Assembly: GCA_951799425.1 (NCBI GenBank)
Contig: OX637391.1
Span: 52,923,069-52,987,068 of the forward strand
From: Ilex aquifolium
Lineage: Eukaryota > Streptophyta > Magnoliopsida > Aquifoliales > Aquifoliaceae
DNA: 64,000 nt
Direction: 5' to 3'
Shown piece by piece: positions 10,016 to 34,984 of this stretch (position 1 is its first letter; every line of letters starts with the position of its first letter). The position numbers were made by a program, and so were the translations under genes. Below the pieces are notes generated by a model. It had not been told where the DNA came from. It ran no database searches and worked only from the letters and a program-made list of their open reading frames with translations.

Positions 10016-10020
10016 TTAGC

Positions 10021-10591: not shown

Positions 10592-10611
10592 GTTGCCCCC
10601 CAGCCCTTGGC
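10592..10611 (-). promoter_or_regulatory. Polypurine tract of element D
   Basis: Read on -, AAGGGCTGGGGGGCAAC directly abuts the 3' LTR. This purine-rich stretch is the expected plus-strand DNA primer site and is the same as in element C. Confidence 0.75.
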
Positions 10612-10799
10612 CCAAGCGAGCTTGGGCAGGGGCTGAGTCGATGTTGAATTGAGATAGACTTCCACACATCGACCTCGATTTGCATGAGCTCGAGGTGTAG
10701 AGAGCTGCTGCTTTTCCTACGGTTGTCGAGTTCCCAGTTGTTCCCATTGCTTCGAGAAATACTTCAGTGCTTATTAAAGCAAATTTATTGACTTTATGA

Positions 10800-12754: not shown

Positions 12755-12795
12755 CAGTCACTGAGAGATCAACTTATTTGTAACAGGAACAGTCG

Positions 12796-12813
12796 TTCCC
12801 ACAGACGGCGCCA
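12796..12813 (-). promoter_or_regulatory. Primer-binding site of element D
   Basis: On - the sequence TGGCGCCGTCTGTGGGAA starts 3 bases after the 5' LTR. It ends in the tRNA-type TGGCGCC block and is identical to the sites of elements A and C. The priming tRNA is not assigned. Confidence 0.8.
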
Positions 12814-12816
12814 AAC

Positions 12817-13387
12817 TGATGGTGTTATTTCACGTGAATGAGCAGCGAGTTAGAGTATAATTGCTAGGAACAGATCTGAGGTACAAGGCCCGTGAATTGG
12901 TGGTTGAATGCTCTAGTTGTTCGAGGTGTGGTGTGTGTAACACGTAGAAATATAGTGGTTCACCGGCTTGGGAGCTCGGCTAGTCCACTCTTCAATGGAG
13001 TCTCTTGCTCCTAGAATCTATATTCATCTAGAAAATGTTTTACAAGAGGCCTTTGATGCCAGTAGGGTTCTCTGCCCTTTGATTGAGGCGTTGTACAGTA
13101 TTTATAGTGTAATTCCTATCTCTAAGGGATTTTCACCGAGATCTTTGCCTTCATCCGTGGGATCTTCCTTGATTTTTGGGAGAGGATCTTAGTTAGTTGA
13201 GAGTTTTGTGCCTTGATTATAGCTTTCCATTGCTTTGAGGATGCCATTCACTAGCCAGCTGTTTCCCTTTCAATTTCCCGTTTGTTTTCTTTGAGGAGAG
13301 CTTGAGGTCTGGATTGCGGAGCCCTGGTTACTGTGTCTGACCTCCTTGTCTGACCTCATACTTAGAGCTTTTTTCTAGGTATCATCA
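12817..13387 (-). repeat. 5' LTR of element D
   Basis: 571 bp, the same as 10021-10591 except for one visible substitution. It acts as the promoter LTR because the gag frame is on -. Confidence 0.9.
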
Positions 13388-15867: not shown

Positions 15868-16419
15868 TGATGGGCCAAGCCCAAATGCCCAACTTCAAAA
15901 GGTCCAGCTAGCCAAGCCCAAAGAGGTCTACACCCAGTCAAGCTCATCAGGGAGCTACATCAGCTTGGCTACGTCATCAGGAGAGCATCCAGGAGCCTCA
16001 CCTTCACCACCTTGGAAAGAGTCAGCCCTCACTCCATCCTTGACCGAGTCTCATGGAGAGCACCTCAACCACCTCGCCTGTTGAGAGAAAGTCGTGAGCT
16101 CCGCTGGAATAGATACTTAGTTGTTATTGAGTCGCCCCAATCTGTTAGAGAGCGACTATAAATTGTAAGCCTCACCGACACTTGGGGGGCAACACACTCA
16201 ACTGAGCACATAGCTCATCTCCTTATCTAAGCTTGTACTCTCTGCTCTCCCTACACACCGGAGTTAATAAAATACCGGCGACCCTTGCCATTCAAAGTGG
16301 ACGTAGGTCATGTTGACCGAACCACTATAAATCTCGTCTTCTATTTCCCTCTACTTTAATTACTGCATTTATTATTCATACTTGACAGGTGGTGTGCAAA
16401 GCCAATTTGTGCATCATCA
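15868..16419 (+). repeat. 5' LTR of element E
   Basis: 552 bp. It carries a TATA-like CTATAAATTG near 16156 and AATAAAATA near 16267, consistent with promoter and polyadenylation functions. The partner is at 19094-19645. Confidence 0.9.
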
Positions 16420-16422
16420 GTT

Positions 16423-16440
16423 TGGCGCCGTCTGTGAGAA
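16423..16440 (+). promoter_or_regulatory. Primer-binding site of element E
   Basis: TGGCGCCGTCTGTGAGAA starts 3 bases after the 5' LTR. It differs by one base from the site in elements A, C and D. Confidence 0.8.
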
Positions 16441-16482
16441 TCGACAAACTTCTCACTTCTAATCACTCCCTCTGTTGAACCT

Positions 16483-17570
16483 ATGACGATCACCACCAGA
16501 TCGATGAATCAACCTGAGGATAATCCACCACGAGAGGAGGAGGTTGCCCCTCCACCAACCAATCATGTTCCAAATGCTCCTATTCCAAACACGCAGAAAA
16601 TGTTGGAGACCATGCAGCAGCTGGTGGCCCAAAACCAGCAGATCCTGCAACTCATGCTTGCCGGACAAGGAGGAGCACAACTTGGAGGACCTCAAGTCAT
16701 AAGAGCTTCACGCCCTGGACATCAAGAAGCTCCACACCTTGGTGCTCCCCATCTAGGCGCCCAGCATGGGGGAGCTCCCCATGAGGGACCTCCTCCTCTA
16801 ACTTCTGCTCCTCACGGTGGAGACCCTCCTCTCCAAGAGGATGAGGGTGAAAACCAGAGCATAGAGCATGGGAGTCATTTCCATGACAATTCAAGAGGAG
16901 CTCTCAACCATTGGGATAAGAAAATTAAGGAGGTACAAAATCAACTGGGTGACATCTTCAACGCCATGAAGGCACAGGGACCCGAGACAGTGGACTACCT
17001 CGTAAGGCGAACAGACACACCTTTCAAGCCAGACGTGGCGAACTACCCCTTTCCTCAAAAGTTTAAAATGTCATCCGTGGAGACCTTTGATGGTATGAAG
17101 GATCCACTGGACCATCTGGAAACTTACAAGACCTTGATGCAGCTGCACAACGTCCCTGACGAAATCATGTGCAGAGTGTTCCCGACCACCTTGAAGGGAT
17201 CAGCATGACAATGGTTCGCCAAACTCACCCCGGCCTCCATAGGCTCCTTCGCCGAATTGAGCAGATCCTTTGTGACACAGTTCATTGGTGGACGCCGCCA
17301 GCAGAAACCTGTCACCCATCTGCTCAGCATAAAGAAGGACCAAGATGAGAGCCTGATAAGCTACCTCACTCGTTTTAACGAGGGGGTCCTTCAGGTCGAA
17401 GAACCCGATGAAAAAGTCAGCATGACCGCCTTCTTGGGAGGCCTCCGATCATCGAGCTTTCTTTTCTCCGTGATGAAGCGACCACCAAAGAGCATGCCAG
17501 AACTATTGGAAAAAGCTTAAAAATATATGAATGCTAAGGAAATCAACAAGTTTAGGCGAGGTGAATCATC
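16483..17570 (+). pseudogene. Gag remnant of element E with two in-frame stops
   Basis: The frame starts MTITTRSMNQPEDNPP and shows a Pro/His/Gly-rich linker with repeats like GAPHLGAPHLGAQHGG. The gypsy gag core follows (PETVDYLVRRTDTPF, ETFDGMKDPLDHLETY, LKGSA). It is interrupted at 17206-17208 (TGA) and continues in the same frame (residues around FVTQFIGGRRQQKPVTHLL) to a second stop at 17518-17520 (TAA). After that, gag similarity fades into repeats. It is clearly related to the gag of element A. No basic tail, Cys/His knuckle or pol remains. Confidence 0.85.
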
Positions 17571-18330
17571 TTGCGGATCGTCAAAAGATTGACCTGCCTC
17601 TGCACTGTTCTCAAACAGGCAGCCTATCTCCAGCTTAGCGGCTCACTTGCGGGTCGCCAAAAAAGCTTGGCATATCCCTGCTCTGCTCTTAAGCAGATAG
17701 CCTATCTCCAGCTTAGCGGCTCTCTCGCGGGTCGCCAAAAAGTCTGGCATATCTCTACTCTGCTCTTAAGCAGGCAGCCTACCTCTGCACTGTTCTCAAA
17801 CAGGCAGCCTATACCTCAAGCTTAAGGACCCTCTCATGGGACGCCAAAAGCTCAGTCTCAAAATGTGTAGCTCTCTCATGAACAATCCTCAAACTCTATA
17901 TTTGCTCTCGCGCAAGCAGCCTACCTCTATCTCCAGGTAATTATGTTAGATAATTTAATGTTCGGAATAACATTGTTTTTGACATCTCCAACACAGGCTC
18001 CCAACATCTCTCAGAACACCCACCCAGGCGCCTAGACCTTGCGCCTAGACATCCTCGGGCGCCCAAGCAAGGCGCCCAGACCCCTCAGGCGCCCAGACTG
18101 GCGACGAGGCAACATCCCCAGGCGGCTAGACCCCCTCAGGCACGCAGACTGGCGCCCAGGCAACATCCCTAGACGCCCAGACACCCTCTGGCGCCCAGCT
18201 ACCTCCCTCAGGCGCCCAGGCAACATCTTCAGGCGGCTAGACCCCCTCAGGCGCCCAGACATCATCTGGCTCCCAGCCTGGCACCCAGGCAGCCCAGCCT
18301 AGCGGCCAAGACCTCCTGCTCGCCCAAGCT
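17571..18330 (+). repeat. Diverged tandem repeats in element E (cagcctatctccagc and ggcgcccag blocks)
   Basis: At about 17610-17830 three copies of a roughly 65-70-bp unit contain CAGCCTATCTCCAGCTTAGC and GCGGGTCGCC. From 18020 to 18300 a GC-rich array of GGCGCCCAG(A/G)C words recurs every 25-35 bases. The open frames across these blocks on both strands are repeat artefacts. Confidence 0.7.
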
Positions 18331-18350
18331 CCTCAAACCAGCACCTAGAG

Positions 18351-18620
18351 AGGAGCAGACCCCCTTTGCTCACCCAAATGAGCCAGCCTAGCGCTTGGAG
18401 TGGAGCAGACCCCCTTTACTCACCCAAATGAGCCAGCCTAGCGCCTGGAGAGGAGCAGACCCCCTTTGCTCACCCAAATGAGTCAGCCTAGCGCCTGGAG
18501 AGGAGCAGACCCCCTTTGCTCACCCAAATGAGCCAGCCTAGCGCCTGGAGATGAGTAGACCCCCTTTGCTCACCCAAATGAGCCAGCCTAGCGCCTGGAG
18601 AGAAGCAGACCCCCCAGGCT
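18351..18620 (+). repeat. 50-bp tandem array in element E
   Basis: Units beginning AGGAGCAGACCCCCTTTGCT start at 18351, 18401, 18451, 18501, 18551 and 18601, an exact 50-bp period with a few substitutions per copy. Confidence 0.9.
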
Positions 18621-18639
18621 CGCCCAAGGTGCTCCAAAC

Positions 18640-19093
18640 GGGGCTTATAATATATTAAATTGAAGCTCTCGACGAGCTCTACAAGACTCATAGCCTTTGG
18701 CTGATGCTGTAAAAAGTCCAAAAAAGGCTTAGAAATAGCTGTTTTGGCCTCCCGAAGTTTTTTAAAAAAAAAAAAAAAAAAATTCTGCTCGCCTAAAAGC
18801 TGCCTGGTCGCCCAAAACCGTGCACCCAACTTTCTGCTCGAAGTTTTGACCGAAACTTTTGCTCCGTAACTCGAAATGAGGCTTATAATATATCAAATCG
18901 AAGCTCTCGGCGAGCCCTACAAGACTCACATCATTTGGCTGTGACTGATGCTGTTAAAAGCTCAAAAAATGCCTAAAAGCACAGGTTTTGGCCTCCCAAA
19001 GTTTTTTCAGTTATGTCGGTCAGCCGAAAATTCAAATTCAACCGAATGCCCTCGTCTCCAAGTTCCATTGGACACAGGGCATTGGAGGGCAAA
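18640..19093 (+). repeat. Tandem duplication of ~235 bp and PPT at the 3' end of element E
   Basis: The stretch starting GCTTATAATATATTAAATTG near 18642 returns in diverged form near 18881 (GCTTATAATATATCAAATCG); both end in GTTTTGGCCTCCC(G/A)AAGTTTTT. An 18-19-base A run sits between them. GGGCATTGGAGGGCAAA immediately before 19094 is the probable polypurine tract. Confidence 0.7.
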
Positions 19094-19645
19094 TGATGGG
19101 CCAAGCCCAAGGGCCCAACTTCAAGAGGTTCAGCTAGCCAAGCCCAAAGAGGTCTACACCCGGTCAAACTCATCAGGGAGCTACATCAGCTTGGCTACGT
19201 CATCAGGAGAACATCCAAGAGCCTCACCTTCACCACCTTGGAAAGAGTCAACCCTCACTCCATCCTTGACCGAGTCTCATGGAGAGCACCTCAACCACCT
19301 CGCCCGTTGAGAGGAAGTCGTGAGCTCCGCTGGAATAGATACTTAGTTGCTATTGAGTCGCCCCAATCTGTTAGAGGGCGACTATAAATTGTAAGCCTTA
19401 CCGACACTTGGGGGGCAACACACTCAACTGAGCACATAGCTCCTCTCTTTATCTAAGCTTGTACTCTCTGCTCTCCCTACACACCGGAGTTAATAAAATA
19501 CCGGCGATCCTTGCCATTCAAAGTGAACGTAGGTCATGTTGACCGAACCACTATAAATCTCGTATTCTCTTTTCCTCTACTTTAATTACTGCATTTATTA
19601 TTCATACTTGACAGGTAGTGTGCAAAGCCAATTTGTGTATCATCA
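19094..19645 (+). repeat. 3' LTR of element E
   Basis: 552 bp, starting TGATGGGCCAAGCCCAAGGG and ending TGTGTATCATCA. It is visibly diverged from the 5' copy. Confidence 0.9.
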
Positions 19646-21504: not shown

Positions 21505-21509
21505 AGAGG

Positions 21510-22220
21510 TGATGGCGTAAACCTTCGGATACGAGCTAAGGAACCAGATTAATTGGCGTGAGCAGTTTGCATGGGGACTAATATGGCATCTGAGCTACAA
21601 GGCTCGTGAAGTGGGGAATGACAGTTCTAATTAGTCGTGTGTAATGTGTGAAATACAATAGAAATATAGTGGTTCACCGGCTGATGAGCTCGGCTAGTCC
21701 ACTCTCTAATGGAGGCTCTTGCTCCTGTCTCTTTATTGATGAATTGAAGGTGTTACAGTCGAATACTCAGGGAACTAGGGTTTCAGAAAGTCTCTCCCTT
21801 CCAATGGGGGCTGTCTCTTCCTTTTTATAGCCTCATACTTACCTCTAATACGGGACTATCCTACATTGAAGGGATCGTGCCCTATCTTTATCCACAATTC
21901 CGGAGTTACCTAAGCTCCTTATGGCTGGCTTCAAAAGGAGAGATCTTTGCCTCCTCCTGTGGGATCCTCCTTAGTTTTAGGAGGAGATCATGGTTAAATA
22001 CGGGTTTTCTGCCTCGGATTGGATTCTACCTCCTTAATAAGGGTATCCAAGTCGTCTTGTTGTTCCCTTAGCATTTCTTCTCTCGCGCCTTCGACTAGGA
22101 GCTCTTAGTGCTGACTGGATGAGCTCTGCTCATGGCTAGGGGAGCTCAGCTTCTTTCGCCTGAGCTCCCGAGCTGAGCTCACTTACTGAGCACGTGCCAG
22201 TTTTATTCTGGGTATCATCA
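21510..22220 (-). repeat. 3' LTR of element C
   Basis: 711 bp from TGATGGCGTAAACC to GGGTATCATCA. The twin is at 34269-34979. Confidence 0.92.
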
Positions 22221-22240
22221 GTTGCCCCCCAGCCCTTGCC
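22221..22240 (-). promoter_or_regulatory. Polypurine tract of element C
   Basis: On -, AAGGGCTGGGGGGCAAC directly precedes the 3' LTR, the same tract as in element D. Confidence 0.75.
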
Positions 22241-22872
22241 TTGAGTTAGCTCAGGCAGGGGATGACTTGTACAAGACGAGTTAGACGTGCGTGTGGCCGG
22301 CACGTGGCTGTAGGATTTCTGACGGTTTTATAGCCATCATGACTTTCCTCGATTCCCGCGCACGTCTCAGCCCATGTCTCCCAGGCTTTAAATGCTTAAA
22401 ACGGCTATCTAAACTGCTTCTTCGCACTGTTCATCTTCTTTACTGCCCTTCGTCTCCGCTCTCTCTGCGATTCCAGTCCTCCTTGCCTTGGTTTTTCTAT
22501 TTTCTTGCCTGAAATCGAATTTCCGGACCTCGTTTCGAAGACTTGCGACGCCTCCTTTTCCGATTTCGTTCCCAGTTCCTGTTTGCCACTATCCCTGGGT
22601 TAGGTACGTCCTTTGCCCTTATTTCTTCCTTTTTTTTTGCTCTGGATCCCTCGAGTTCGAGGTGGTTATTGCATTTTTGGGCTTTTCGGTTCTTTTATTT
22701 TTGGAATCGTGACCATTGTCTAGCCCCACTTCACCACTTCGTGGATTGGGGTTCTGTAGTTCATATCCTTGCTGTTGGGAGCCACTGTGTTGATCCCCGG
22801 GTCATTAGAGAGTGTCTGACTAATCCCCCTTTGCTCTATCGCTCTTTCCATCTTCCTTTTTCTCTCCCTATC
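22241..22872 (+). promoter_or_regulatory. Putative promoter and leader of antisense gene 1
   Basis: CTTTAAATGCTTAAAACGG near 22386 could serve as a TATA-like element, followed by a CT-rich stretch like a plant 5' UTR. TTAGGTACGT near 22600 looks like a splice donor and CTGTAG near 22755 a possible acceptor, so a leader intron is conceivable. All of this is inference from composition; no transcript start is known. Confidence 0.3.
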
Positions 22873-25502
22873 ATGTCTGCTTCTTCTGAAGCCACTCGCT
22901 CCTCTGTTTCACTTCTAGGATCTAGGTCAGCCGGAGAAGATACGGATTTAGGGGAAGTTGGTGATGAGATTGATAATTTTCCGGGTGTAGAGGCTGTAGA
23001 GGCTGAGGTCTACGCCGAGGAGCCTCCCTCCACCTCATCTTCCCTGCCCCCCAGACCTGACAAAGGCAAAGCTAAGATAAGTGGAGTCGGGGTGGAGGAG
23101 AAAACCTCGTATCTAGGGCTCGCCTTTAGGCATGCCGAATCTGTGGGCTGCAGTAAAGAGGCCCCTAGGCTAATGAAGTCTTATAAAGTTCGGTATGGTT
23201 TTCCCCCTGGGGTCGAACCCTGGTGCCCAGATCGATCCGTTTTTTATGTAGAAAAAGTTCATAACAGAGTCTGCTTCTTTCTTGCTGCTTTTGACAACGG
23301 CCTTCGCTTTCCCTTGCATCCCTTCATCAAGGCTGTTCTGCAACATTTTCATGTGTGCCCTTCCCAGATCTCCCCCAACTTCTATGGCGTCATGGTTGGT
23401 CTGTTAGTCCTGTTTAAGAAGCATAAACTTGGGATTCCTAGCATTCCTTTGTTCTTAGAGCTCTTCAATGTAAAACCGACCTCCGGAGGCTTCTTGTATG
23501 CCTCCAAGCGTGCCAGTGTTAGGCAGCTCATCTCTGACATTCCGACCTCCCATAAACACTGGAAGGAACATTTCTTCTTTGTCGGGGGCACCAATTGGGA
23601 GTACAACCCTGCTGATAAGACAGACACACTCGGTATCCCTACGGCCTGGGCTGAACCAGATAATTTACGTGAGTCCTTACTTGAGTTCGAGCTCTGATCT
23701 GGAACCTGCCGGCCTCTTATCTTTTTCTTATTTGCATACTTTCTTCCTCTTAGGTGAACGCTACGAGCTCAGCCCTGAGGACAAAAAGTTGCTAGCAAAG
23801 TTGGAGAAGATCAAGCCAGAGAAGTACGCCGATTTGATTGAGTCAAGGAACCTGGTACAGCTAGGTCTGAGTCTTCCTGTGGCGACTTTAGCGATCCCCT
23901 TGTCTGTTTTAGGGGCTGACGAAGGTGATTTCAACGCCATTCTTTTTCCTTTCTTCATTATCTTTCCTTCCTTTCTCTTTTTCTTTACATTTTCCTACTT
24001 CTTCCAGATCTTCCAGGTCCTTCTACCATGAAGGTTGATCCAGAAGAGCTTCAGGCCAAAATTGCAGAGCTGATGGTGGGTGGCAGGTCTAAGAAACGCA
24101 AAGCTCGGGTAGGCTCTGGGAGCGGCCCAAACATTCGAGCTAAGATCCCCCGGCTGGAAGCATCTTCTCCCCCTTCTGCAGCTGAAGGACAGGTTCCAAG
24201 CAAGGCTCCGCCCTCCTCCTCTGGAACTTCACAAGCTGCAACCACCTTTTCTTCCCCTCCAGTGGCCCCTTCTAAGTTGGCGTCTGCTCAGGAGAGGGAT
24301 CAGGCTTCCCCTTCTTCTTCTGAGGTCAAGGAGGCTTTGGAATTGGTTCCCGACCTTCAACCCGGGAAGTTCGAATACAGTGCTTCTGGGAAGGTGACTG
24401 AAAAAGAGAGAAAGTCTGAGGAGGAAGATGAGGACTCCTTTTTTGACAATATAGACCTTGCTGCTGGAGCTCTTTCCTCTATCTTTTCTGAATCTGATGT
24501 CCTGAAGGCCGCTTCCATGCCCCTGGAGGAATCCATCTCTTTGGCCCTTCAGGGAGCTGCTACTGTGAGTGTTAACCCCCTGTCTCTCTTTGCTTGTTTG
24601 TATTTCGTGGTCTGACATTATTTGCTGTACTTTCCTTATATTCTCAGGCTGCCCTTCATACGAAAGGTCTGCTGCACCGAGTTCGCTCTCAAGAGAGCTC
24701 TTTCCAGGTCTTAAAGAAATACAAGACCAAGGTTTCAGAATTGTCTCTTGAGAATGAAGACCTCAGAGCTCAGGTGGAGAGCCTTAAAGTGCAGATGGAG
24801 GGTCTCAACGAACAGATGGTGAAGCAAGCCTCCGATCTCAAACATACACTGACAGTCAAGGCCAGAGCTGAGGAAGGGGAAAAGAAGACTCGGGATGAGC
24901 TGAAGGCGGTTAAGGAAGACCTGCAGGCTAAGGTTGAGGCGTGGTCCAAGGCTAACCAGGAGGCCTTTGACGCTAAGAGGGAGCTCATCCAGGTTAATCA
25001 AGATTATTTTGCCCTCAGTGAGGCTAACGGCAAACTCTGTGAGGAGCTCGAGGAGCAGAAATATTTGGTTCAAGAGAGAGACAAAGAGTTTGCCGAGCTT
25101 AAGGATGAGGCCACCACTTCATGGGCTACTGGATGGCTTGCTTTTAGGCGTAAGGCTACCAAAGCATATCCAGACCTTGATTTCAATCTCCCCATCCCCA
25201 CTGAGGAGGAAATGGAAGAATCTGGCACTGACAATGAGGGGGATATCTCAGACTCCCCAGCTGCTGCCTTAAGTCAAGACACACCCGCCCCTGGGACCTC
25301 AGAAGCTATTATCGCGCTCCCTGAGCCTTCAACAACGATTCCTGAGCTTTCTGCTGTAGCTCCTGCTGTTCCTGTTTCTGCATCCTTTTCAGCTGTCGTG
25401 GTGTCTGAAGCCCTTGTTCAAGGTGAGCCCTCAGCAACAGAAGCAAGGGACTCCTCTACTGAGCTGCGAGATCCTTCAATCCCTCTTCTTCCAGAATCCT
25501 AG
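22873..25502 (+). CDS. Antisense gene 1 of element C: gypsy-type-transposon-like domain protein with coiled coil
   Basis: Four exons joined by GT-AG introns that keep frame: 22873-23668, 23754-23924, 24008-24564, 24648-25502, giving 792 residues from MSASSEATRS. Residues ~100-260 hold a folded domain (FDNGLRFPLHPFIKAVLQHF, then NFYGVMVGLLVLF and a HWKEHFFFVGG motif) resembling the plant family annotated as putative gypsy-type transposon. A basic cluster KKRKAR at about 351-356 could be a nuclear signal. An acidic/Ser-rich linker follows, then a long coiled coil (~525-670) and an acidic Pro/Ala/Ser-rich end. It runs opposite to gag-pol and lies between the pol 3' end and the 3' LTR. Function is unknown. 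The start was chosen at the first ATG before the acidic N-terminus; the frame is open further upstream. Confidence 0.75.
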
Positions 25503-26663
25503 GTCTTTTTAGTTGTAATTTCTCTGTAAAGAATTTTTCGTGATGTAGTCTTTGACTTCATTTATTGCTCTTTTGCTGGCTTAGTATATATATACATATC
25601 TTTTAATTTCAGCATATATGTATTCTTGGATTTTGATTCGACTTCGACTCGAACCGCAACGGTGCACTTATTTGCCTGGCTTTGCATGCACTCAACTTTG
25701 TATACTCCCTTTGCCCCCTTTTGCTTTGAGGGGTGCTGTGCACTTCTTGAAGCAAAATTACTAGGTTTGAAGAGTACGGGGGACTTGGTGTTATGTTCTA
25801 CTGATTTTCCCGAGCCTTTTAAGCTCAGTAGTTGGTACCCTAGGGGTCCACTCCTTATTCTTCTTCGTCCTAAGCTGCTCAACTCTATATTCTGAACTGG
25901 CGTGCTCCTTCAGAGTTGCATAGCTCGTGCTTGTGAGCTTATAAATTCTTGCTGAGCTAAGACGGTTCTTTTTTCGAACTTGAGAGCTCTGAGCTCTTTG
26001 TCTTTTCCGTATGAACTGAAGAGCGCTTTCTGAGCTATTTGGCTCTGTTGTCTGATCTTAAAGTTTATTTCTGAGCTTCGTGGTTCTTTTGTCTGAATTT
26101 ACGGGTTCTGTCTGAGCTTCATGATTCTTTAAACGAACCCTTCTCTAGATCAGATAATAAATTTCGTTGCTCCATTTCTCTAAGAGTAGAGGACCTTCTT
26201 CTACGTTTCACCTCTCTTTTCCCCACATCTTGCTTTGCGGAGTGCTTTAGGCCTTCCTTAAGCGAGGCTTTGAGCTTTCACACCTCACAGATTTGGTATA
26301 CAAGTGCTCTGTTTTTTACTGGGCTGAGCTCAAATATGGAGGGTATATTGCTTGGTGGGGTCAGAATTTTCGTTGGTCGTTTTGAGTGCAAATAGGAGGG
26401 GTAGTATCTGGTTTCTTTTCCCGCGTTTTTCTCTCAACCGCTTCCCATAACCGCCACGTCTTTCCCCTTTCCATATCCGCAACCACTTTCCATAACCGTA
26501 GCCACTTTCCATAACCGCTGCTACCTTTATTACTTAAGAAACTGAACAGGCCACTTGATTCCCTCTTTCTTGGCTCTTAGTTTCCTGAAAAGCTCTCAAG
26601 CGCATGACCTATTCTTGACTTTCTTCTTGATTTCTTGCATCTTTTTCCTTACCAGCATTTTCG
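25503..26663 (+). other. Spacer between the two antisense genes of element C
   Basis: No coding exon is seen. From about 25900 to 26120 are degenerate repeats containing GAGCTT and GAGCTC with ~40-bp spacing, resembling the 40-bp units of element D. The part near 26520-26640 is CT-rich and probably the leader of antisense gene 2. Confidence 0.45.
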
Positions 26664-27752
26664 ATGGCCGCATCCACTTCTTCTTTGTTCCAGGAACGAT
26701 CCTCCTTTGGGATCGAATGGGAGTGGCATTGTCGCTATTTGTCCCCTTCATTACTTGAATCTTCTGATTTGACGGACATCAAGAAACGGTTTTTCCCTGA
26801 TCTTGACTTGCCTATGCGAGTTTCTTCCTCCGACGAGCCTTGTAACTACCTTCCCCGAGGGGAAGTCTGTTTCTTTGAAGGTGCTATGGACATGGGACTT
26901 CGCCTTCCCATTCATCCGGCCATTGGGCGAGTTCTTGCCTATTATGGCCTGTGCCCTTCTCGCCTTTCTCCACGAGGATGGGGTGCTATGGTAAGCTTCT
27001 TCTTGTTCTGCCGCCTTCATGCTCTTGGCAGGTTCCCCTTTGTCTCTGAGTTTCTATACTTCTTTGAGATTGAGGAAGATAATGCCCCCTGCTTCAGTTT
27101 CTTCCGTTGGAGGGATTTCAATTTACGCCCTCTGGTTCTAGATCTTCCCTCCAACCCTGAAGGGTGGTCTGAGCGTTTCTTCTTCGCTTCTGGAGAGGCT
27201 TGGAGGTCTCCTGAGGATCGTTGTCATAAAGCCAGGATTCCTCGGTCCTGGAAGAGCTTCTCCCGTATTGGTAAGCTCGAGCATAGCTCTTTTGAGTACT
27301 TTCCTTTTAAAAATATGCTCTGATTATGTCCTTGCTGTGCAGATCCACCTGACCTGGATTTACCAGGGATGGTGAATATCAACGAGTTGTTGCTTGTGGA
27401 GTCTAAGACTTATTCCGAGCTGATGACGAGCGCAAACCTCTATTTGCTTGGGGCTGAGGCTACTGAGTTTGAGTTTTCCACTATTCCTTACTCTTCCTGG
27501 ACCTCTTTCTCTGATTCTGATGAGGATGAGGATTCTGACAAGGACGGAAACACCGCCACGAGTTCGAGGAAGCGTAAGAGGGACGATTCCCCTTCTCCTG
27601 ACTCTCTGTCCACCATCTTCCTTACCTCTGTTGGTCAGAAGCTCCTTAATTCGCTTCAAAAGGCTGAGCAGGAAAGGGATGAGCTGAAGAAAGAGAATGC
27701 TAGCCTGAAGGGAGAGGTTGCTGAGCTGAAATCTGAACTTAAGAAAGACTAG
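26664..27752 (+). CDS. Antisense gene 2 of element C: shorter paralogue of antisense gene 1
   Basis: Two exons, 26664-27270 and 27343-27752, with a GT-AG phase-1 intron give 338 residues from MAASTSSLFQ. Residues ~70-200 carry the same domain as gene 1: AMDMGLRLPIHPAIGRVLAY here against FDNGLRFPLHPFIKAVLQHF there, and WSERFFFASG against HWKEHFFFVGG. After the intron DPPDLDLPGMV parallels DLPGPSTMKV of gene 1, so the intron position seems shared. An acidic patch (DSDEDEDSDKD) precedes a basic signal-like RKRKR (278-282). The C-terminus (~300-336) is a coiled coil. It is a tandem paralogue of gene 1 with a shortened C-terminal half. Function is unknown; a nuclear role is inferred only from composition. 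Confidence 0.75.
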
Positions 27753-28139
27753 AATCTTTGTTTCCTTGTATCGTTCTTTCTTTTCTTAAGCGATATCAGA
27801 CTATGACTCTTTTTGTATTTTTCTGAATATTTGCACTGTCGGATATTTCGAATGCCAGACTTTTCATTCATCTCGAATTCTGTTAGGTTATTTCAGCTTA
27901 CTCTTCTCGTTCGAAACACGAACGTAGATGGAGAATAGAAGATCATGTCTGCTCTGACCTTACTTCTCATCTGACCTCATAGGTGTTCTCAGTTGTTCTG
28001 GACCTTTCGAGGTCTTTGAGTGTGTAGGCAGTGCACAAGGGTATCTGGTCCTGGGGGGAGGACCATTGGTGTCTCCAAGAAGCGTTCAGCCTTGAATTTG
28101 ACTGTTGGTGTCTCCAAGAAGCGTTCAGCCTTGAATTTT

Positions 28140-29085
28140 GTACGAGCTGAAGAGCTCGTCTTTTGTTTATAAGCTTTTGAGGCTTATCCTGTAGTTATGA
28201 GCTGAGGAGCCCATCTTTCTTTTATAAGCTTTGGAGCTTATCGTGTTTTTATGAGCTGAAGAGCTCATCTTAAATTTATAAGCTTTGAAGCTTATCGGGT
28301 TTTTATGAGCTGAAGAGCTCATCTTGCATTTATAAGCTTTGAAGCTTATCGTTTGTTTATGAGCTGAAGAGCTCATCTTGCATTTATAAGCTTTGAAGCT
28401 CATCGTTTGTTTATGAGCTGAAGAGCTCATCTTGCATTTATAAGCTTTGAAGCTTATCGTTTGTTTATGAGCTGAAGAGCTCATCTTGCATTTATAAGCT
28501 TTGAAGCTTATCGTTTGTTTATGAGCTGAAGAGCTCATCTTGCATTTATAAGCTTTGAAGCTCATCGTTTGTTTATGAGCTGAAGAGCTCATCTTGCATT
28601 TATAAGCTTTGAAGCTTATCGTTTGTTTATGAGCTGAAGAGCTCATCTTGCATTTATAAGCTTTGAAGCTCATCGTTTGTTTATGAGCTGAAGAGCTCAT
28701 CTTGCATTTATAAGCTTTGAAGCTTATCGTTTGTTTATGAGCTGAAGAGCTCATCTTGCATTTATAAGCTTTGAAGCTCATCGTTTGTTTATGAGCTGAA
28801 GAGCTCATCTTGCATTTATAAGCTTTGAAGCTTATCGTTTGTTTATGAGCTGAAGAGCTCATCTTGCATTTATAAGCTTTGAAGCTTATCGTTTGTTTAT
28901 GAGCTGAAGAGCTCATCTTGCATTTATAAGCTTTGAAGCTCATCGTTTGTTTATGAGCTGAAGAGCTCATCTTGCATTTATAAGCTTTGAAGCTTATCGT
29001 TTGTTTATGAGCTGAAGAGCTCATCTTGCATTTATAAGCTTTGAAGCTTATCGTTTGTTTATGAGCTGAAGAGCTCATCTTGCTA
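28140..29085 (-). repeat. 54-bp higher-order tandem array of element C
   Basis: GAGCTGAAGAGCTCAT recurs at an exact 54-bp period from 28253 to 29063 (16 copies), with two degraded copies before that. Each 54-bp unit consists of two diverged 27-bp halves: one with AGCTGAAGAGCTCAT, one with AGCTTTGAAGCT(T/C)AT, both near-palindromic. Element D has the 27-bp form. The apparent 330-residue frame on - (28167-29159) exists because 54 is a multiple of three and the unit lacks a stop. It sits between the convergent ends of pol and antisense gene 2. Confidence 0.9.
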
Positions 29086-29159
29086 CTTTGGAGACCATTG
29101 GAGGGTGAATAAAAGGCTTGCTCTTTCTTATTTAAAAGTAGTCCTATTACAAGTAACAC

Positions 29160-31331
29160 TTACTGAAAAAACTTCTTAAGGTGCTCGGCATTCCACGAGT
29201 GAGGTAAAACCTTTCCTTCCTCTGTTTGCAACTCGTAATTCCCTGGTCTGATTATCCTTGACACGATATAGGGCCCTTCCCAATTGGGTCCCAATTTCCC
29301 ATGCGTGGGATCCTTTCTCGCAAGCAGAAGCCTCCTAAGCACCAAATCTCCAACCTTGAAACTTCTGTGTCTTACCCTCCTGTCATAGTACCTTGCTGTT
29401 TTCCTTTGGTAAGTACGGACACGGTGCAGAGCTCTGTCCCTCTTTTCATCCAAGAGATCGAGGTTTAGCAAGAGAGACTCATCATTGTGCTCAGGATCTG
29501 CAAACTCCACCCTTGGTGATTGGAGCCCTATCTCCACTGGGGCCACTGCCTCAGTCCCAAAGGCCAAAGCAAAGGGGGTTTCCTGAGTCGCAGATCTGGC
29601 GGTGGTCCTGTAGGCCCACAATACCTCCGGAATGTACTCCACCCATTTGCCTTTCAGGTTTTCTAGCTTGGTCTTCAAAGCTGACTTTATGGTTCTTATA
29701 GTGACCTCTGCCTGCCCATTAGACTGGGGATGGGCAGGAGCTGAGAAATAGTTCTTGATTCCGAGCTCGGCACAAAAACTTTTGAACTTTGAATTATCAA
29801 ACTGCTTTCCATTGTCAGATACGAACGCTCTGGGAACTCCAAACCTGCAAACTATCGACTTCCAAACGAAGTTTTGAACTTTTTGCTCTGTGATCGTTGC
29901 CAAAGGTTCGACCTCTGCCCATTTAGTAAAGTAATCCACTCCTACGACGGCAAACTTGCACTGCCCCACACCGGTGGGTAGGGGTCCCAGAATGTCTAGC
30001 CCCCACTGCTGAAAAGGCCATGGGCTTACCACCGAGGTTAGGAACTCGGGAGGACAGTGGGACATATTAGCATGCTCTTGGCAAGTTTTGCATTTTCTTA
30101 CTAAGTCGGTGGCGCTTTTGAACATGGTGGGCCAATAATATCCTTGCCTCAGTACTTTTCCTGCCAAGGCCCGAGCTCCTATGTGGTTGCCACATATCCC
30201 CTCATGTACTTCTCTGAGTATGTAGTTAGCATCTTCGTCTCCTACGCACTTAAGGAGAGGCATTGAAAATCCATGCTTGTACAGTTTCCCTTGCATCAGG
30301 GAAAATCTGGCTGACCTGGCCCTTAGCTTGGATGCCTCCTTGGCACTATTTGGCAAAGTTCCATTCTGAAGGTACTCTACGATGGGGTCCATCCAGCTCG
30401 GCTGAGCTTCAATTGACAGAATTTCCTCTTCTTCAATGCTTACCGAGGGCTTTGGAAGGTGCTCTACTGGAATTAGCCTATCCAAATCCTCTTGTGAGGC
30501 AGTTGCTAACCTTGCCAGAGCATCTGCTCGTGAGTTCTCCACTCTAGGCACGTGTCTGACCTTAACCTGCACAAACTGTTTCATTAGTTCTCGTACCTTT
30601 TTAAGGTACAGGACCATCTTCTCGCCTCTTGCCTCGTAACACTCTTCTATCTGCTTCACCACCAGTTGAGAATCACTGCAGATCTCCAGCTGCTCTGCTT
30701 CCATAGAATAGGCAAGATTAAGCCCAGCGATGACGGCTTCATATTCTGCCTCATTATTTGAAGCTTTGAACCCAAATCTGAGGGCATATTCGACGTCTAT
30801 TCCTTCTGGGGAGGTCAGGATCATTCCTGCACCGCTTCCCTGAGCATTGGCGGCTCCATCCACTGAAAGCTTCCATATGGGAAGGTCCGGTACTAAATCC
30901 GTGGTTTCCATAGGCGCTGCTGCTGTGAATTCTGCAATAAAATCTGCCAAAATTTGCCCTTTGATGGCAGTTCTTGGCTTGTACCTGATATCAAACTCGC
31001 TGAGCTCTACGGCCCACTTAACCAACCTCCCTGAGGACTCCGGCTTGTGTAGTACTTGCTTCATTGGCTGATCTGTTGGAACCTCAACAGTATGAGCCTG
31101 GAAATAAGGTCTAAGTCTCCTAGCTGTTGTAACCAGAGCTAGAACGAGTTTTTCCATCCTTGGATATCTCTCATCTGCCCCCCTCAGAGCTCTGCTACAG
31201 TAGTAGACTGGTTGCTGAGCTCTGTCTCGCTCCCTAACTAGCGCTGCACTTGTTGAAAAATCTGAAACTGCTAGGTAGAGGGTGAGGATTTCCCCTTCTA
31301 GAGGGCTCACCAGAACAGGGGGAGAGCTCAT
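29160..31331 (-). CDS. Pol of element C, 3' part: RT connection, RNase H and integrase
   Basis: 723 residues. The first ~90 correspond to the RT C-terminus and the normal RNase H-like connection (YLAVSDFSTSAALVRE, ALRGADERYPRMEKL). Residues ~145-280 form a second RNase H of the archaeal type (SVDGAANAQGSGAGM, SNNEAEYEAVIAGL, SDSQLVVKQI, RADALARLA), typical of the Tat lineage. Integrase follows at ~370-600, with the Asp of WGLDILGP, the Asp of SDNGKQFD and the Glu of NGQAEVTIRT, all three catalytic residues present. The C-terminus ends in a chromodomain-free basic tail. It is out of frame with the upstream ORF because of a deletion around 31360-31370, so it cannot be made as a normal polyprotein. 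Confidence 0.88.
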   Translation of the reverse strand: MSSPPVLVSPLEGEILTLYLAVSDFSTSAALVRERDRAQQPVYYCSRALRGADERYPRMEKLVLALVTTARRLRPYFQAHTVEVPTDQPMKQVLHKPESSGRLVKWAVELSEFDIRYKPRTAIKGQILADFIAEFTAAAPMETTDLVPDLPIWKLSVDGAANAQGSGAGMILTSPEGIDVEYALRFGFKASNNEAEYEAVIAGLNLAYSMEAEQLEICSDSQLVVKQIEECYEARGEKMVLYLKKVRELMKQFVQVKVRHVPRVENSRADALARLATASQEDLDRLIPVEHLPKPSVSIEEEEILSIEAQPSWMDPIVEYLQNGTLPNSAKEASKLRARSARFSLMQGKLYKHGFSMPLLKCVGDEDANYILREVHEGICGNHIGARALAGKVLRQGYYWPTMFKSATDLVRKCKTCQEHANMSHCPPEFLTSVVSPWPFQQWGLDILGPLPTGVGQCKFAVVGVDYFTKWAEVEPLATITEQKVQNFVWKSIVCRFGVPRAFVSDNGKQFDNSKFKSFCAELGIKNYFSAPAHPQSNGQAEVTIRTIKSALKTKLENLKGKWVEYIPEVLWAYRTTARSATQETPFALAFGTEAVAPVEIGLQSPRVEFADPEHNDESLLLNLDLLDEKRDRALHRVRTYQRKTARYYDRRVRHRSFKVGDLVLRRLLLARKDPTHGKLGPNWEGPYIVSRIIRPGNYELQTEEGKVLPHSWNAEHLKKFFQ

Positions 31332-31359
31332 ATATCTCTTTAGGTCTTCGAATGCTTCT

Positions 31360-34206
31360 TCACAATCCGAAGGGCATGACCTGATAACAATATGTTCCCT
31401 GTTCAGTCACAAAGGAGGTCTTCTCCTGATCGCTGGGATCCATCCCGATCTGGTTGTAGCCTGAAAAAGCGTCCATGAAACTGAGGAGCTCGTGCCCTGC
31501 AGTGGCGTCCACTATTAGGTCAATCCGAGGTAAGGGAAAACTGTCTTTGGGGCATGCTCGGTTGAGATCAGTGAAGTCGATGCACAATCGCCACTTCCCA
31601 TTGGTTTTCTTTACGAGAACTACATTTGCTAACCAAGTGGGGTAATGAACCTCCCTGATAGCCTTGGCATGGAGGAGTTTGCTGACCTCCTCATTGATTG
31701 CTTTTTGCCTTTCATAAGCAAAGCTCCTCCTCTTCTGTTTGATGGGTTTGCAAGTTGGGTTTACGCATAACTTGTGGGTAATAACCGAGGGATCAATTCC
31801 TTCCATGTCTTCTTGCTTCCAAGCGAACACTCCTATATTCTCTTTTAGGAACTGGATGAGGAGTCTTTTGAGCTCAGCGTTTAGTTTGGAACCCACATAA
31901 ACAAGGTGTTCTGATTTCTCATCAAGCTGAACTGGTTCCAGCTCTTCCGATGGCATTGGTCTTGTCTCCATTTCATCTCTCATGTCGAGCTCATCCAGTT
32001 GGATGTTCTCGACCTCCTTCCTTTTTACAGAAGCCAAGTAGCACTCCCGTGCTACGCGCTGGTCTCCTCGGACCACTCCGATTCCATTTTCTGTAGGGAA
32101 CTTCACGACTAAATGATACGCAGATGGGATTGCCTTTATAGAATTTAGGGATGGCCTTCCAAGCAAGATGTTGTACGCCGATGGTGCATCGACTACTAGG
32201 AATTTGACAGTGGTAGTGGCTTGGCAAGGTGGATCCCCCAGGGTGAGCACGAGCTGGATTGAACCCAGGGGGAGCACCTTTTCCCCGGAGAATCCCAGCA
32301 AGTGAGTGCTTACTGGCTCAAGTTTTTGTCTTCCTATGTCCATCCTGTCAAACGCAGGTGCGAAAATAATATCTGCCGAGCTCCCGTTATCAATTAGAAC
32401 CCGATGAACTGTTCTATTTGCCACCACAGCTCGTACCACCAGTGGATCATCATGGGGGTATTGGCACCCTTCTAAATCAGCATCTGAAAAAGTGATAGTT
32501 GTATCCAAGCGTGGAGCCTTGGATACAGCGTGCACTTCGAGAGTTTCTTCGGCTCTGATTCGCCGGAGGTGCGCCTTCCTAGCTGAGCTTGACTCTCCAC
32601 CTCCTGCGAAACCTCCAGATATCACTCTGATTTCTCCTAGAGGCTGCTGGTGTGGTGCAGGTGCCTGCTGTCGGGGTGGCGGAGGCGGAAGAGCTCGGTT
32701 CAGGTTATCATTGGCTATAAAACGACGCAGCTGACCTCGCTGGATCAAGAACTCGATTTCCTTCTTCAATTGAATACAGTCATCAGTGTGGTGTCCATGA
32801 TCTCGATGATAATCACAGTACTTCGTGGGGTCCCTCTTTGCCGGGTCTGCCTTCATCCTAGGTGGCCATTTTAAAAACTTCTCGTTCTGGACCTCATACA
32901 GTACTTGTGACACAGCAGCGGTGAGTGGGGTAAACCGCTGAGGCCCATACCTGGGTTGTAGTTCAGGTTGCATGGGACCCAGCCGATCTCTGACATTTCC
33001 TCTCCTCTTTGGCGAGCGGTCTCTGTCCCTCCTTGGGGACCTCTCTCGTCCTTTTTCCTTCCTAGGGCTTCTGTCCCTTCTCTTTTCTTCTTTTTCCTTT
33101 TCCTTTCGTGAAGATGTACCGACCACCTTAGAAAGGAGTGCCTCTTCACCATTTATATATTTCTCTGCCTTGGCTAACACCTCAGCCATACTTGCCTGAG
33201 GGTTTTTTGATATGGAGAACATCAAATCCTTTGATTGCACTCCCAACCCTGCAATGAAAGCAGTTATGGCGAATTTTTCATCCGGGACGTCTACTTTCAA
33301 TGTCTCCGAGTTAAATCTTTGGACATAAGTCCTCAGGTTTTCCTGGGGACCCTGCTTCACATTCAGCAGGTGGTAGCTCGGCTTTCTGTGTATCCGGGCT
33401 CCTATGAAATGAGAGACAAAAGCAATGGAGAGTTCTTTAAAGGATGAGATCGAGGCTGGCGGGAGCCTATGAAACCAGTTTAAGGCGGAGCCTTTCAGCG
33501 TGATAGCAAAAGCTCTGCATCGTACAGGATCCTGGTACCCATGTAGCTCCATCTGGTTCTTGTAAGTGTTGAGATGATCCACGGGATCTTTCGATCCGTC
33601 AAAGACCTCCATTTGAGGCATCCTGAATTTTGGTGGGAGAGGGAAGTGTAGCACCCCCGTGGTGAATGGGGATTCGGTTTGCTGGACCAAAACATCCATT
33701 GTAACCGGGGTCTTACTTTTTACGGCCTCCTTCATATGGCTGAGCTCTTGCTGGAAATCTTTGAAGCGTTGCTCCCAGTGCTGCTCTCTCCTGTCTTGCG
33801 GATAAGGGAAGAAATCACCTCTCTCACCCCTGTCGTTCCGACTTTGCACTTCGTCGTTAGGGCCATTACCAGGGGGTACGTAGGGGACATATCCCCTGGC
33901 CTGGCTGCCTTCCCCCCCCTCGCTGACCTCTCTATGGGGGTCCCAGTATCGAGGTTCCCTATGAGGGGGGTTATTCTGGCCTTCATGGGCCGGTGGTGCC
34001 TCTTGTGGGTGTTGTACGAGCTTTGACAGCTCTTCATTTTCCTTTAGCAAACGTTGGTTGACGAGACGCAGGGCCTCCAACTCGTTATTAATGAGGGAAT
34101 TCGCCTCCTGGATGTTCCCGGGTTGCCTGCCGTGGGCAGTTTCCGGCTGATCTTGCATTCGAGGTAGATTTGTTTGGCTTCTGCTCATATTTCGAGTTAT
34201 TACCAT
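31360..34206 (-). CDS. Gag-protease-RT (N-terminal part) of element C
   Basis: 948 residues from MVITRNMSRSQTNLPR. The gag core lies at ~190-340 (FDGSKDPVDHLNTY, LKGSALNWFHRLP). Next come a basic RS-rich stretch, a Cys/His element YCDYHRDHGHHTDDC near 480 and a protease with DNGSSADI near 610. The first part of reverse transcriptase follows, from ~850 (WRLCIDFTDLNRACP, FMDAFSGYNQI). The frame ends right after VMPFGL, a conserved RT block, where a deletion joins it to sequence encoding the end of RT. The catalytic YVDD-type box is therefore absent from the element. Start chosen by alignment to the gag of element D. Confidence 0.9.
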   Translation of the reverse strand: MVITRNMSRSQTNLPRMQDQPETAHGRQPGNIQEANSLINNELEALRLVNQRLLKENEELSKLVQHPQEAPPAHEGQNNPPHREPRYWDPHREVSEGGEGSQARGYVPYVPPGNGPNDEVQSRNDRGERGDFFPYPQDRREQHWEQRFKDFQQELSHMKEAVKSKTPVTMDVLVQQTESPFTTGVLHFPLPPKFRMPQMEVFDGSKDPVDHLNTYKNQMELHGYQDPVRCRAFAITLKGSALNWFHRLPPASISSFKELSIAFVSHFIGARIHRKPSYHLLNVKQGPQENLRTYVQRFNSETLKVDVPDEKFAITAFIAGLGVQSKDLMFSISKNPQASMAEVLAKAEKYINGEEALLSKVVGTSSRKEKEKEEKRRDRSPRKEKGRERSPRRDRDRSPKRRGNVRDRLGPMQPELQPRYGPQRFTPLTAAVSQVLYEVQNEKFLKWPPRMKADPAKRDPTKYCDYHRDHGHHTDDCIQLKKEIEFLIQRGQLRRFIANDNLNRALPPPPPRQQAPAPHQQPLGEIRVISGGFAGGGESSSARKAHLRRIRAEETLEVHAVSKAPRLDTTITFSDADLEGCQYPHDDPLVVRAVVANRTVHRVLIDNGSSADIIFAPAFDRMDIGRQKLEPVSTHLLGFSGEKVLPLGSIQLVLTLGDPPCQATTTVKFLVVDAPSAYNILLGRPSLNSIKAIPSAYHLVVKFPTENGIGVVRGDQRVARECYLASVKRKEVENIQLDELDMRDEMETRPMPSEELEPVQLDEKSEHLVYVGSKLNAELKRLLIQFLKENIGVFAWKQEDMEGIDPSVITHKLCVNPTCKPIKQKRRSFAYERQKAINEEVSKLLHAKAIREVHYPTWLANVVLVKKTNGKWRLCIDFTDLNRACPKDSFPLPRIDLIVDATAGHELLSFMDAFSGYNQIGMDPSDQEKTSFVTEQGTYCYQVMPFGL

Positions 34207-34247
34207 CAGTCACTGAGGAATCAGCTTACTTGTAACAGGAACAGTCG

Positions 34248-34268: not shown

Positions 34269-34979
34269 TGATGGCGTAAACCTTCGGATACGAGCTAAGG
34301 AACCAGATTAATTGGCGTGAGCAGTTTGCATGGGGACTAATATGGCATCTGAGCTACAAGGCTCGTGAAGTGGGGAATGACAGTTCTAATTAGTCGTGTG
34401 TAATGTGTGAAATACAATAGAAATATAGTGGTTCACCGGCTGATGAGCTCGGCTAGTCCACTCTCTAATGGAGGCTCTTGCTCCTGTCTCTTTATTGATG
34501 AATTGAAGGTGTTACAGTCGAATACTCAGGGAACTAGGGTTTCAGAAAGTCTCTCCCTTCCAATGGGGGCTGTCTCTTCCTTTTTATAGCCTCATACTTA
34601 CCTCTAATACGGGACTATCCTACATTGAAGGGATCGTGCCCTATCTTTATCCACAATTCCGGAGTTACCTAAGCTCCTTATGGCTGGCTTCAAAAGGAGA
34701 GATCTTTGCCTCCTCCTGTGGGATCCTCCTTAGTTTTAGGAGGAGATCATGGTTAAATACGGGTTTTCTGCCTCGGATTGGATTCTACCTCCTTAATAAG
34801 GGTATCCAAGTCGTCTTGTTGTTCCCTTAGCATTTCTTCTCTCGCGCCTTCGACTAGGAGCTCTTAGTGCTGACGGGATGAGCTCTGCTCATGGCTAGGG
34901 GAGCTCAGCTTCTTTCGCCTGAGCTCCCGAGCTGAGCTCACTTACTGAGCACGTGCCAGTTTTATTCTGGGTATCATCA
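34269..34979 (-). repeat. 5' LTR of element C
   Basis: 711 bp, essentially identical to 21510-22220. Confidence 0.92.
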
Positions 34980-34984
34980 AGAGG

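Follow-up and report, generated by a model that had tools for sequence, protein, structure and literature searches.

Plant retrotransposons can carry antisense accessory genes, which have long been puzzling. According to the main text of a survey of Retand elements (Vicient 2025, PMC11963269), antisense TRP28 genes are a mark of this lineage, with antisense PF04195 genes present in 61 of 63 clusters ("all clusters except two"). In that survey, ORFs were found with ORF Finder, as single ORFs, and the word "intron" is absent from its main text; the reported ranges are 7.4-12.9 kb for the internal region, 315-1194 bp for the LTR and 2.9-6.6 kb for the stretch between pol and the 3' LTR. The trait described for the wider Tat clade is a dual RNase H (PMC9289625). 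For gene23 of the maize element Grande, a promoter of its own and a nuclear protein have been reported (Gomez-Orte 2013, as related in the review PMC7264820).

In the current study, we analyzed a window of 64,000 nucleotides of the Ilex aquifolium genome, containing an element (element C) that we consider likely to be a Ty3/gypsy retrotransposon of the Tat clade (Retand-type), with two spliced accessory genes, the paralogues A and B, lying opposite gag-pol (Table 1). The dual RNase H of the Tat clade was found by Pfam as RT_RNaseH/RT_RNaseH_2 and RVT_3 matches in one ORF. The Retand-lineage trait was found as well: in the stretch from pol to the 3' LTR, a TRP28 gene runs antisense. Compared with the Retand ranges, the LTR (711 bp) and the internal region (12,048 bp, as shortened in this copy) fit, whereas the pol-to-3' LTR stretch, at ca. 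6.9 kb (22221-29159), is longer. An earlier note, made from the letters alone, had called element C a near-intact, recent insertion. Its recency is borne out by LTRs that are identical at 710 of 711 sites and by AGAGG on both sides (21505-21509 and 34980-34984), but the element is not near-intact: the reverse transcriptase lacks ca. 425 bp that are present at 31363/31364 in all six other copies sampled, and the RVT_1 match breaks off at profile position 123 of 205, which is the end of its ORF, the following ORF starting with RNase H.

Table 1. Features of element C and its two antisense genes (positions within the window)
Feature	Position	Strand	Remarks
3' LTR	21510..22220	-	711 bp; direct repeat with 34269-34979, 1 mismatch; TG...CA ends
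Gene A	22873..25502	+	4 exons, 792 aa; between pol and 3' LTR
Gene A exon 1	22873..23668	+	Frame joins; TRP28 domain in 23269-23475 (PF04195 residues 133-201)
Gene A intron 1	23669..23753	+	GTGAGT...TAG, phase 1, 85 nt; indicated by protein relatives in other genomes
Gene A exon 2	23754..23924	+	Frame joins; copy comparison
Gene A intron 2	23925..24007	+	GTGATT...CAG, phase 1, 83 nt; 74-101 nt in far copies
Gene A exon 3	24008..24564	+	Frame joins; basic cluster SKKRKAR at 24088-24108
Gene A intron 3	24565..24647	+	GTGAGT...CAG, phase 0, 83 nt; donor indicated by relatives
Gene A exon 4	24648..25502	+	Frame joins; coiled-coil-like region and stop
Gene B	26664..27752	+	2 exons, 338 aa; between pol and 3' LTR
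Gene B exon 1	26664..27270	+	Frame joins; TRP28 domain in 26865-27071 (PF04195 residues 68-136)
Gene B intron	27271..27342	+	GTAAGC...CAG, phase 1, 72 nt; less well supported than A introns
Gene B exon 2	27343..27752	+	Basic cluster SSRKRKRDD at 27561-27587; short coiled-coil-like tail
54-bp tandem array	28144..29083	.	17.4 copies; between gene B and end of pol
Part of pol	29160..31406	-	RNase H, second RNase H-like domain, integrase (Pfam)
gag and first part of RT	31360..34209	-	Pfam; RT ends at deletion point near 31363/31364
5' LTR	34269..34979	-	Direct repeat with 21510-22220

The two multi-exon frames proposed in the earlier note hold up: the exon joins are open throughout both proteins, and all four introns are bounded by GT-AG. 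Open stretches of 394, 308, 230 and 228 codons occur on the + strand of 22221-28143, and in 500 dinucleotide shuffles of this interval the longest was 224 codons (230 or more in 0 of 500); 32 read-through relatives were used in the same analysis. Both proteins carry the domain that they had been said to share, PF04195 (Transposase_28/TRP28), with whole-protein scores of 35.9 bits (A) and 38.6 bits (B) against a gathering cut-off of 26.2; this is the "putative gypsy type transposon" family named in the earlier note. A basic cluster common to A and B can be read directly from the sequence, and each protein has a coiled-coil-like region, judged from heptad-like sequence seen by eye and from sub-threshold Pfam matches (exon 4 of gene A alone gave no Pfam match at E <= 0.01). 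Structure models were confident over only ca. 62 (A) and 64 (B) residues, where the predicted order of helices and strands is identical; no solved fold matched these models, and searches of the PDB, of viral folds and of solved-structure profiles gave nothing usable.

A and B are indeed paralogues (33% identity over 181 aa, E 7e-28). Intron 1 of gene A and the intron of gene B each split a codon 7 residues past the same aligned tryptophan (W259 in A, W196 in B), in phase 1. The earlier claim of a common intron of the same phase stands, but not the "DLPG" motif by which the introns had been paired, which indicates intron 2 of gene A and is unsupported by the alignments. Because A and B have the same intron site, their common ancestor most likely already had this intron.

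We compared element C with 40 further copies from the source plant's own 800 Mb genome. These were chosen from 150 rows, the best gene B matches of 7287 candidates, and are thus biased towards similarity in B; at the 150 places scored (best of 7287), exon 1 of gene B was stop-free in 139. Copies were classed as near (21) or far (19) by a divergence in A below or above 5%. The earlier note had set neutral disruption of the frames as the outcome that would tell against it. We found the frames kept: against the 19 far copies, dN/dS was 0.20 for gene A (shifted frames, 1.39 and 1.27) and 0.21 for gene B (shifted frames, 1.29 and 1.45), values pooled over non-independent pairs with dS of 0.66-0.92, near saturation. 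By exon, the true frame gave 0.08, 0.30 and 0.29 for exons 1, 3 and 4 of gene A and 0.18 for exon 1 of gene B, and the RNaseH-integrase piece gave 0.14 against 6 other copies. In the near copies, selection was clear for exon 1 of gene A (0.11) and for gene B (0.25); exons 3 (0.69; shifted frames, 0.71 and 0.48) and 4 (0.50; shifted frames, 0.52 and 0.57) of gene A did not stand out. Comparison between copies thus shows that the frames of A and B are both held by purifying selection within the family.

It is also conceivable, although improbable, that the antisense RNA matters rather than the protein, acting as a non-coding regulator of the element (through double-stranded RNA, silencing or its avoidance) with the frames incidental. 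A dual role for antisense transcripts has been raised in the review cited above (PMC7264820). However, neither the frame-specific selection seen in far copies in both genes (shifted frames, 1.27-1.45) nor the scarcity of indels in exons 1-3 of gene A and in the exons of gene B would be expected from RNA pairing alone.

The low divergence of gene B in far copies (p of 0.04-0.055, with flanks at 0.12-0.19) was considered as a sign of strong constraint, a reading that we rejected. Exchange between subfamilies, together with picking bias, explains it better, since divergence is just as low in the B intron (0.039), the copies were picked by their similarity in B, and windows of zero divergence are found elsewhere too.

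Further comparison of the copies bears on the introns. Leaving out copies without the site, the donors of introns 1-3 of gene A were GT in 38 of 39, 38 of 39 and 39 of 40 copies, and the acceptors were AG in 39 of 39, 39 of 39 and 40 of 40. Intron interiors were 74% identical in the 19 far copies, and their lengths varied. Frame-breaking indels in far copies (n = 18, one copy without exons 1-2 of gene A being left out) numbered 3.9, 9.4 and 12.1 per kb in introns 1-3, and 0.21, 0 and 0.38 per kb in exons 1-3; exon 4 had 2.4 (and 6 indels per kb in all). This pattern of change shows gene A to have three introns. The intron of gene B is shown less firmly. Taken with dN/dS, the indels and the conserved splice ends argue for what had been proposed for element C, namely, a duplicated, intron-bearing accessory gene under purifying selection.

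Protein relatives in other genomes likewise indicate introns 1 and 3 of gene A; they gave no sign of intron 2. Among the best-scoring 120 of 1419 relatives within a length window, 80 stop 1-39 aa past the donor of intron 1, 13 stop before it, and 27 continue for at least 40 aa beyond it; these counts come from a tally of 136 proteins, the 120 and 16 others from a separate search. Of the 136, 79 were taken into an alignment, and residues compatible with N|GTRAG were found at 110 of the 119 readable junctions (17 left out). The donor of intron 3 is reached by 12 relatives, one of which reads on. The gene B protein had no match outside its own genome at E <= 0.001 among 1351 candidates, and no relatives were found in viral contigs or in a scan of genome contigs. 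Could the supposed introns instead be coding, with the genes single-exon or read through? The 27 relatives above pass the intron 1 site, as do all 19 matches of the separate search, although that search returned only proteins of at least ca. 435 aa, which favors read-through. Moreover, all 40 copies have a B intron of 72 nt, a length divisible by 3, and among the 19 far copies it is open in 9. At the intron 1 site of gene A, however, a stop is present in 40 of 40 readable sequences from the plant's own genome, element C included, and intron length changes while the ends stay GT-AG. We regard this explanation as very unlikely overall; for gene B, it is only weakened.

Introns and antisense orientation would also be in keeping with a gene taken up as DNA and not by way of an mRNA, as if the pair were a captured host gene hitchhiking without benefit to the element. 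We think this unlikely, given that whole-gene dN/dS (0.20-0.34) is comparable with that of the integrase piece (0.14), and that the main text of the Retand survey reports no TRP28 similarity outside transposable elements (PMC11963269).

Turning to expression, no TATAWA hexamer was found at 22100-22900, ahead of gene A, and two lie 0.7-1.1 kb upstream of gene B. A bacterial-type promoter scan performed at chance level and was disregarded. We envisage that A and B would have their own promoters and be transcribed from the integrated DNA, that the host would splice the transcripts, and that the products would be nuclear proteins (in view of the basic cluster) able to self-associate via the coiled coil. 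The TRP28 part may contact element DNA or chromatin, and the proteins may regulate many related copies in trans or shield them from silencing; the nuclear and DNA-binding roles are proposed by analogy.

Reverse transcription is expected to remove introns from retrotransposons, and introns kept for so long would be an exception with a simple strand-based reason. The packaged genomic RNA would be the gag-pol sense strand, on which the GT-AG introns of antisense genes would read as CT-AC, so that the spliceosome would ignore them and they would survive reverse transcription. The antisense proteins, in turn, could be made only from nuclear DNA and never from packaged RNA. One possible, albeit tentative, generalization is that elements of the Retand type possess a nuclear module of two proteins from spliced genes, made up of the TRP28 paralogues A and B with their coiled coils (perhaps as partners), in which one intron predates the duplication and all are protected by antisense orientation from retrotranspositional loss, and which would act only from integrated DNA. 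If so, the element would have a built-in switch between two phases, expression in the nucleus and replication in the particle. With the exon-intron structure backed by comparison within one genome, and with selection in the RNaseH-integrase range, the question of whether, in this family, this is a gene appears nearly settled, and the exact junctions and proteins of A and B are now given for testing.

The genes had been described as possibly belonging to a little-described accessory system. As a gene type they are known; like the antisense TRP28 ORF of Retand elements, A and B lie between pol and the 3' LTR, run antisense and carry PF04195, and element C further resembles these elements in its tandem repeats adjoining pol and in an LTR size within range. 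What is not described, in the main texts examined, is introns in antisense TRP28 genes or a pair of such genes in one element; here, unlike the TRP28 ORFs of the survey (PMC11963269), introns interrupt both genes, which stand in tandem. Grande gene23 is likewise an antisense accessory gene 3' of pol, but it is a single gene with no intron mentioned in the account available, and it is likened to A and B by description rather than by sequence. Splicing is also described for a related plant Ty3/gypsy lineage (PMC6317226), although there the intron separates gag-prot from pol in the sense orientation, and those of element C are in antisense genes. HTLV HBZ, as discussed in the Retand survey (PMC11963269), is an antisense nuclear regulator of a retroelement and may offer a parallel to A and B, by functional analogy only.

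By comparison of genomic copies, genes A and B, which run antisense to gag-pol within the Retand-type Ty3/gypsy element of the window (element C), were shown to be two coding genes under selection. The exons proposed in the earlier note, once joined, give stop-free frames of 792 and 338 residues, which bears out its spliced gene pair opposite gag-pol. Open stretches on the plus strand reach 394, 308, 230, and 228 codons, against a maximum of 224 among 500 shuffles of the region. Both proteins clear the curated cutoff of PF04195 (Transposase_28, or TRP28; "Putative gypsy type transposon"), gene A at 35.9 bits and gene B at 38.6, and their claimed paralogy was confirmed by BLASTP (33% over 181 residues; E 7e-28), in an alignment extending past the Pfam domain. 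A profile search with exon 1 of gene A returned 1419 relatives on ENA contigs of 44-151 Mb, whose hosts are probably plants; PF04195 was present in all 120 listed (the best 120 of 1419). Since gene A is closer to these relatives (47-56% identity) than to gene B (29-30%), the A/B split seems, judged by identity rather than by a tree, to be older than that between gene A and its relatives. Gene B is 31-40% identical to the relatives.

Features of element C and its neighbors in the window
Feature	Position	Strand	Remark
LTRs of element C	21510-22220 and 34269-34979		
Gag-pol of element C		minus	
Candidate donor in leader of gene A	22604-22609		GTACGT
Gene A	22873-25502	plus	4 exons; between pol end and 3' LTR
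Gene B	26664-27752	plus	2 exons; between pol end and 3' LTR
54-bp tandem array	28144-29083		separates gene B from pol
Gap in reverse transcriptase	31363/31364		
Short LTR element	10020-13300		repeats 10020-10504 and 12816-13300
Small element	15868-19393		

Element C itself is a recent yet defective copy. Its LTRs differ at 1 of 711 sites and AGAGG borders it on either flank, so the insertion is recent, as the earlier note had it; the description "near-intact" did not survive. Pfam identifies an integrase and two RNase H-type domains in pol, but RVT_1 is matched over only positions 1-123 of 205, where the ORF stops, and RNase H opens the next ORF. Here the reverse transcriptase has a gap of ca. 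425 bp relative to all six other copies sampled, and copies without it therefore exist.

Selection was measured by Nei-Gojobori counts, comparing element C with 40 copies from the same genome chosen among the 150 best gene B matches: 19 far copies, whose gene A differs by ca. 18% in DNA, and 21 near copies (<5%). Against the far copies, dN/dS was 0.20 for gene A (shifted frames, 1.39 and 1.27) and 0.21 for gene B (1.29 and 1.45); by exon, gene A gave 0.08 for exon 1, 0.30 for exon 3, and 0.29 for exon 4 (true frame, the row printed as frame1). Against the near copies, the values were 0.34 for gene A (shifted, 1.04 and 0.80), 0.11 for its exon 1, and 0.25 for gene B (1.21 and 0.97). In this near comparison the true frame did not stand out in exon 3 (0.69; shifted, 0.71 and 0.48) or exon 4 (0.50; 0.52 and 0.57) of gene A, and pairs inside the near set gave 0.65 for exon 3, with one shifted frame at 0.37. 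The RNaseH-integrase piece, compared with six other copies, gave 0.14 (shifted, 0.97 and 3.80). In-frame stops occur in gene A of 4/40 copies and gene B of 2/40, and the terminal stop codon of gene B is altered in 2/40. The best 150 of 7287 candidate gene B exon 1 places in the genome were scored; all were full length, at 93-100% identity, and 11 contained a stop. Disruption of the frames at neutral rates, named beforehand as one outcome that would count against the gene pair, was not what we found, given the low true-frame dN/dS and the few stops among copies.

The introns of gene A are well supported by indels among copies, by their kept splice ends, and by concurring relatives. In far copies, indels per kb numbered 15.7, 26.8, and 12.1 in introns 1 to 3 versus 0.21, 0.32, 1.8, and 6.05 in exons 1 to 4; for frame-breaking indels, the figures were 3.9, 9.4, and 12.1 versus 0.21, 0, 0.38, and 2.41. 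Exon 4, with the highest rates of any exon, is thus the least constrained. Donor GTs of introns 1, 2, and 3 are kept in 38/39, 38/39, and 39/40 copies and acceptor AGs in 39/39, 39/39, and 40/40; by comparison, GT pairs within exons 1 and 3 are retained in 775 of 1078 cases in far copies, where intron interiors are 0.741 identical. Across all copies, lengths range over 82-94, 74-101, and 82-84 nt. In the leader of gene A, a donor-like motif follows AG and precedes T-rich sequence, and a 5' UTR intron is possible there.

The relatives, which come from other genomes and look like plain ORF predictions, point to intron sites 1 and 3. At the intron 1 donor, 80 of the 120 listed stop 1-39 residues beyond, 13 stop earlier, and 27 continue; junction residues agree with N|GTRAG in 110 of 119 readable junctions. 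In 32 read-through relatives, conservation is lowest over the intron 1 stretch (0.689 versus 0.753-0.878). A contrary point is that intron 1 is read through in 19/19 hits of one protein search, in part because of that search's length window. Of 136 relatives, 12 extend to the intron 3 donor. Nine of these have S-V/I-S at that point and terminate no more than 14 residues later, another 2 stop right at the donor in a shifted frame, and only P0003 continues. No counterpart of intron 2 is visible in the relatives, which lack the ca. 28 residues standing before it in gene A; its prediction draws solely on the within-genome evidence.

Gene B likely has one intron. It splits a codon 7 residues past a Trp aligned with the Trp preceding intron 1 of gene A, in identical phase, and the shared intron claimed for the two genes holds for this pair. 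GT and AG are both kept in 40/40 copies. However, the intron is 72 nt, a multiple of three, in all 40, is open in frame in 9/19 far copies, and is no more divergent than the adjoining 150 bases of exon 1 (0.0395 versus 0.0400); its support therefore comes from homology with intron 1 of gene A and from the stop met on read-through in 32 of 41 sequences, element C included. Open frames of 373 aa occur among the scored exon 1 places (26664-27342), and these, with the open introns, make an intron-retained gene B protein possible in some copies.

Divergence along far copies switches between ca. 0.2-0.4 and 0 within a few hundred bases; one (L037) shows 0.000 at both 24300 and 27700. Pol pieces of three copies, far type by gene B identity, match element C at 96.7-99.6%. 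The plain reading is that subfamilies exchanged sequence, e.g., by template switching. Over 22500-27900, copies L022-L048 show zero-divergence windows amid ca. 20% divergent sequence, a sharp subfamily mosaic.

Two smaller elements lie nearby. The repeats of the short LTR element are 99.8% alike across the 485 bp compared, and it carries a related tandem array along with a gag stretch that shares 83% identity with element C across 1289 bp; neither an RNaseH-integrase nor a TRP28 match was found there, and it looks like a non-autonomous relative of element C. The other has repeats 96% alike, and its gag-like frame shares 38% identity with the one in element C.

As to mechanism, genes A and B may be transcribed from their own promoters and spliced in the cell; basic clusters would direct the proteins to the nucleus, coiled coils would pair them, and TRP28 might contact DNA or chromatin, the proteins acting in trans upon a large element family. 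By established splicing rules, antisense introns persist because the genomic RNA carries their complement; retrotransposition reporters use the same strand logic, reversed (PMC12786077). Acquisition of the genes from spliced mRNA is unlikely, as the introns are present.

Genes of this kind are already known. In PMC11963269, every cluster has antisense ORFs, and 61 of the 63 clusters have TRP28; DNA binding is predicted and a regulatory role proposed. The word "intron" is absent from the main text of that paper; its figures or supplements could depict a TRP28 pair. Elsewhere, Transposase_28 is reported in 23% of Retand elements and an intron in Ogre (PMC6317226). Gene23 of Grande is reported to have a nuclear protein and a promoter of its own in PMC7264820, whose authors urge examination of "antisense and spliced transcripts". 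Introns in antisense TRP28-type genes were not found among literature titles and abstract openings, and our claim to novelty is bounded by these and by the text portions cited. Genes A and B are a real, selected antisense accessory pair; what is new is their structure, not the system itself.
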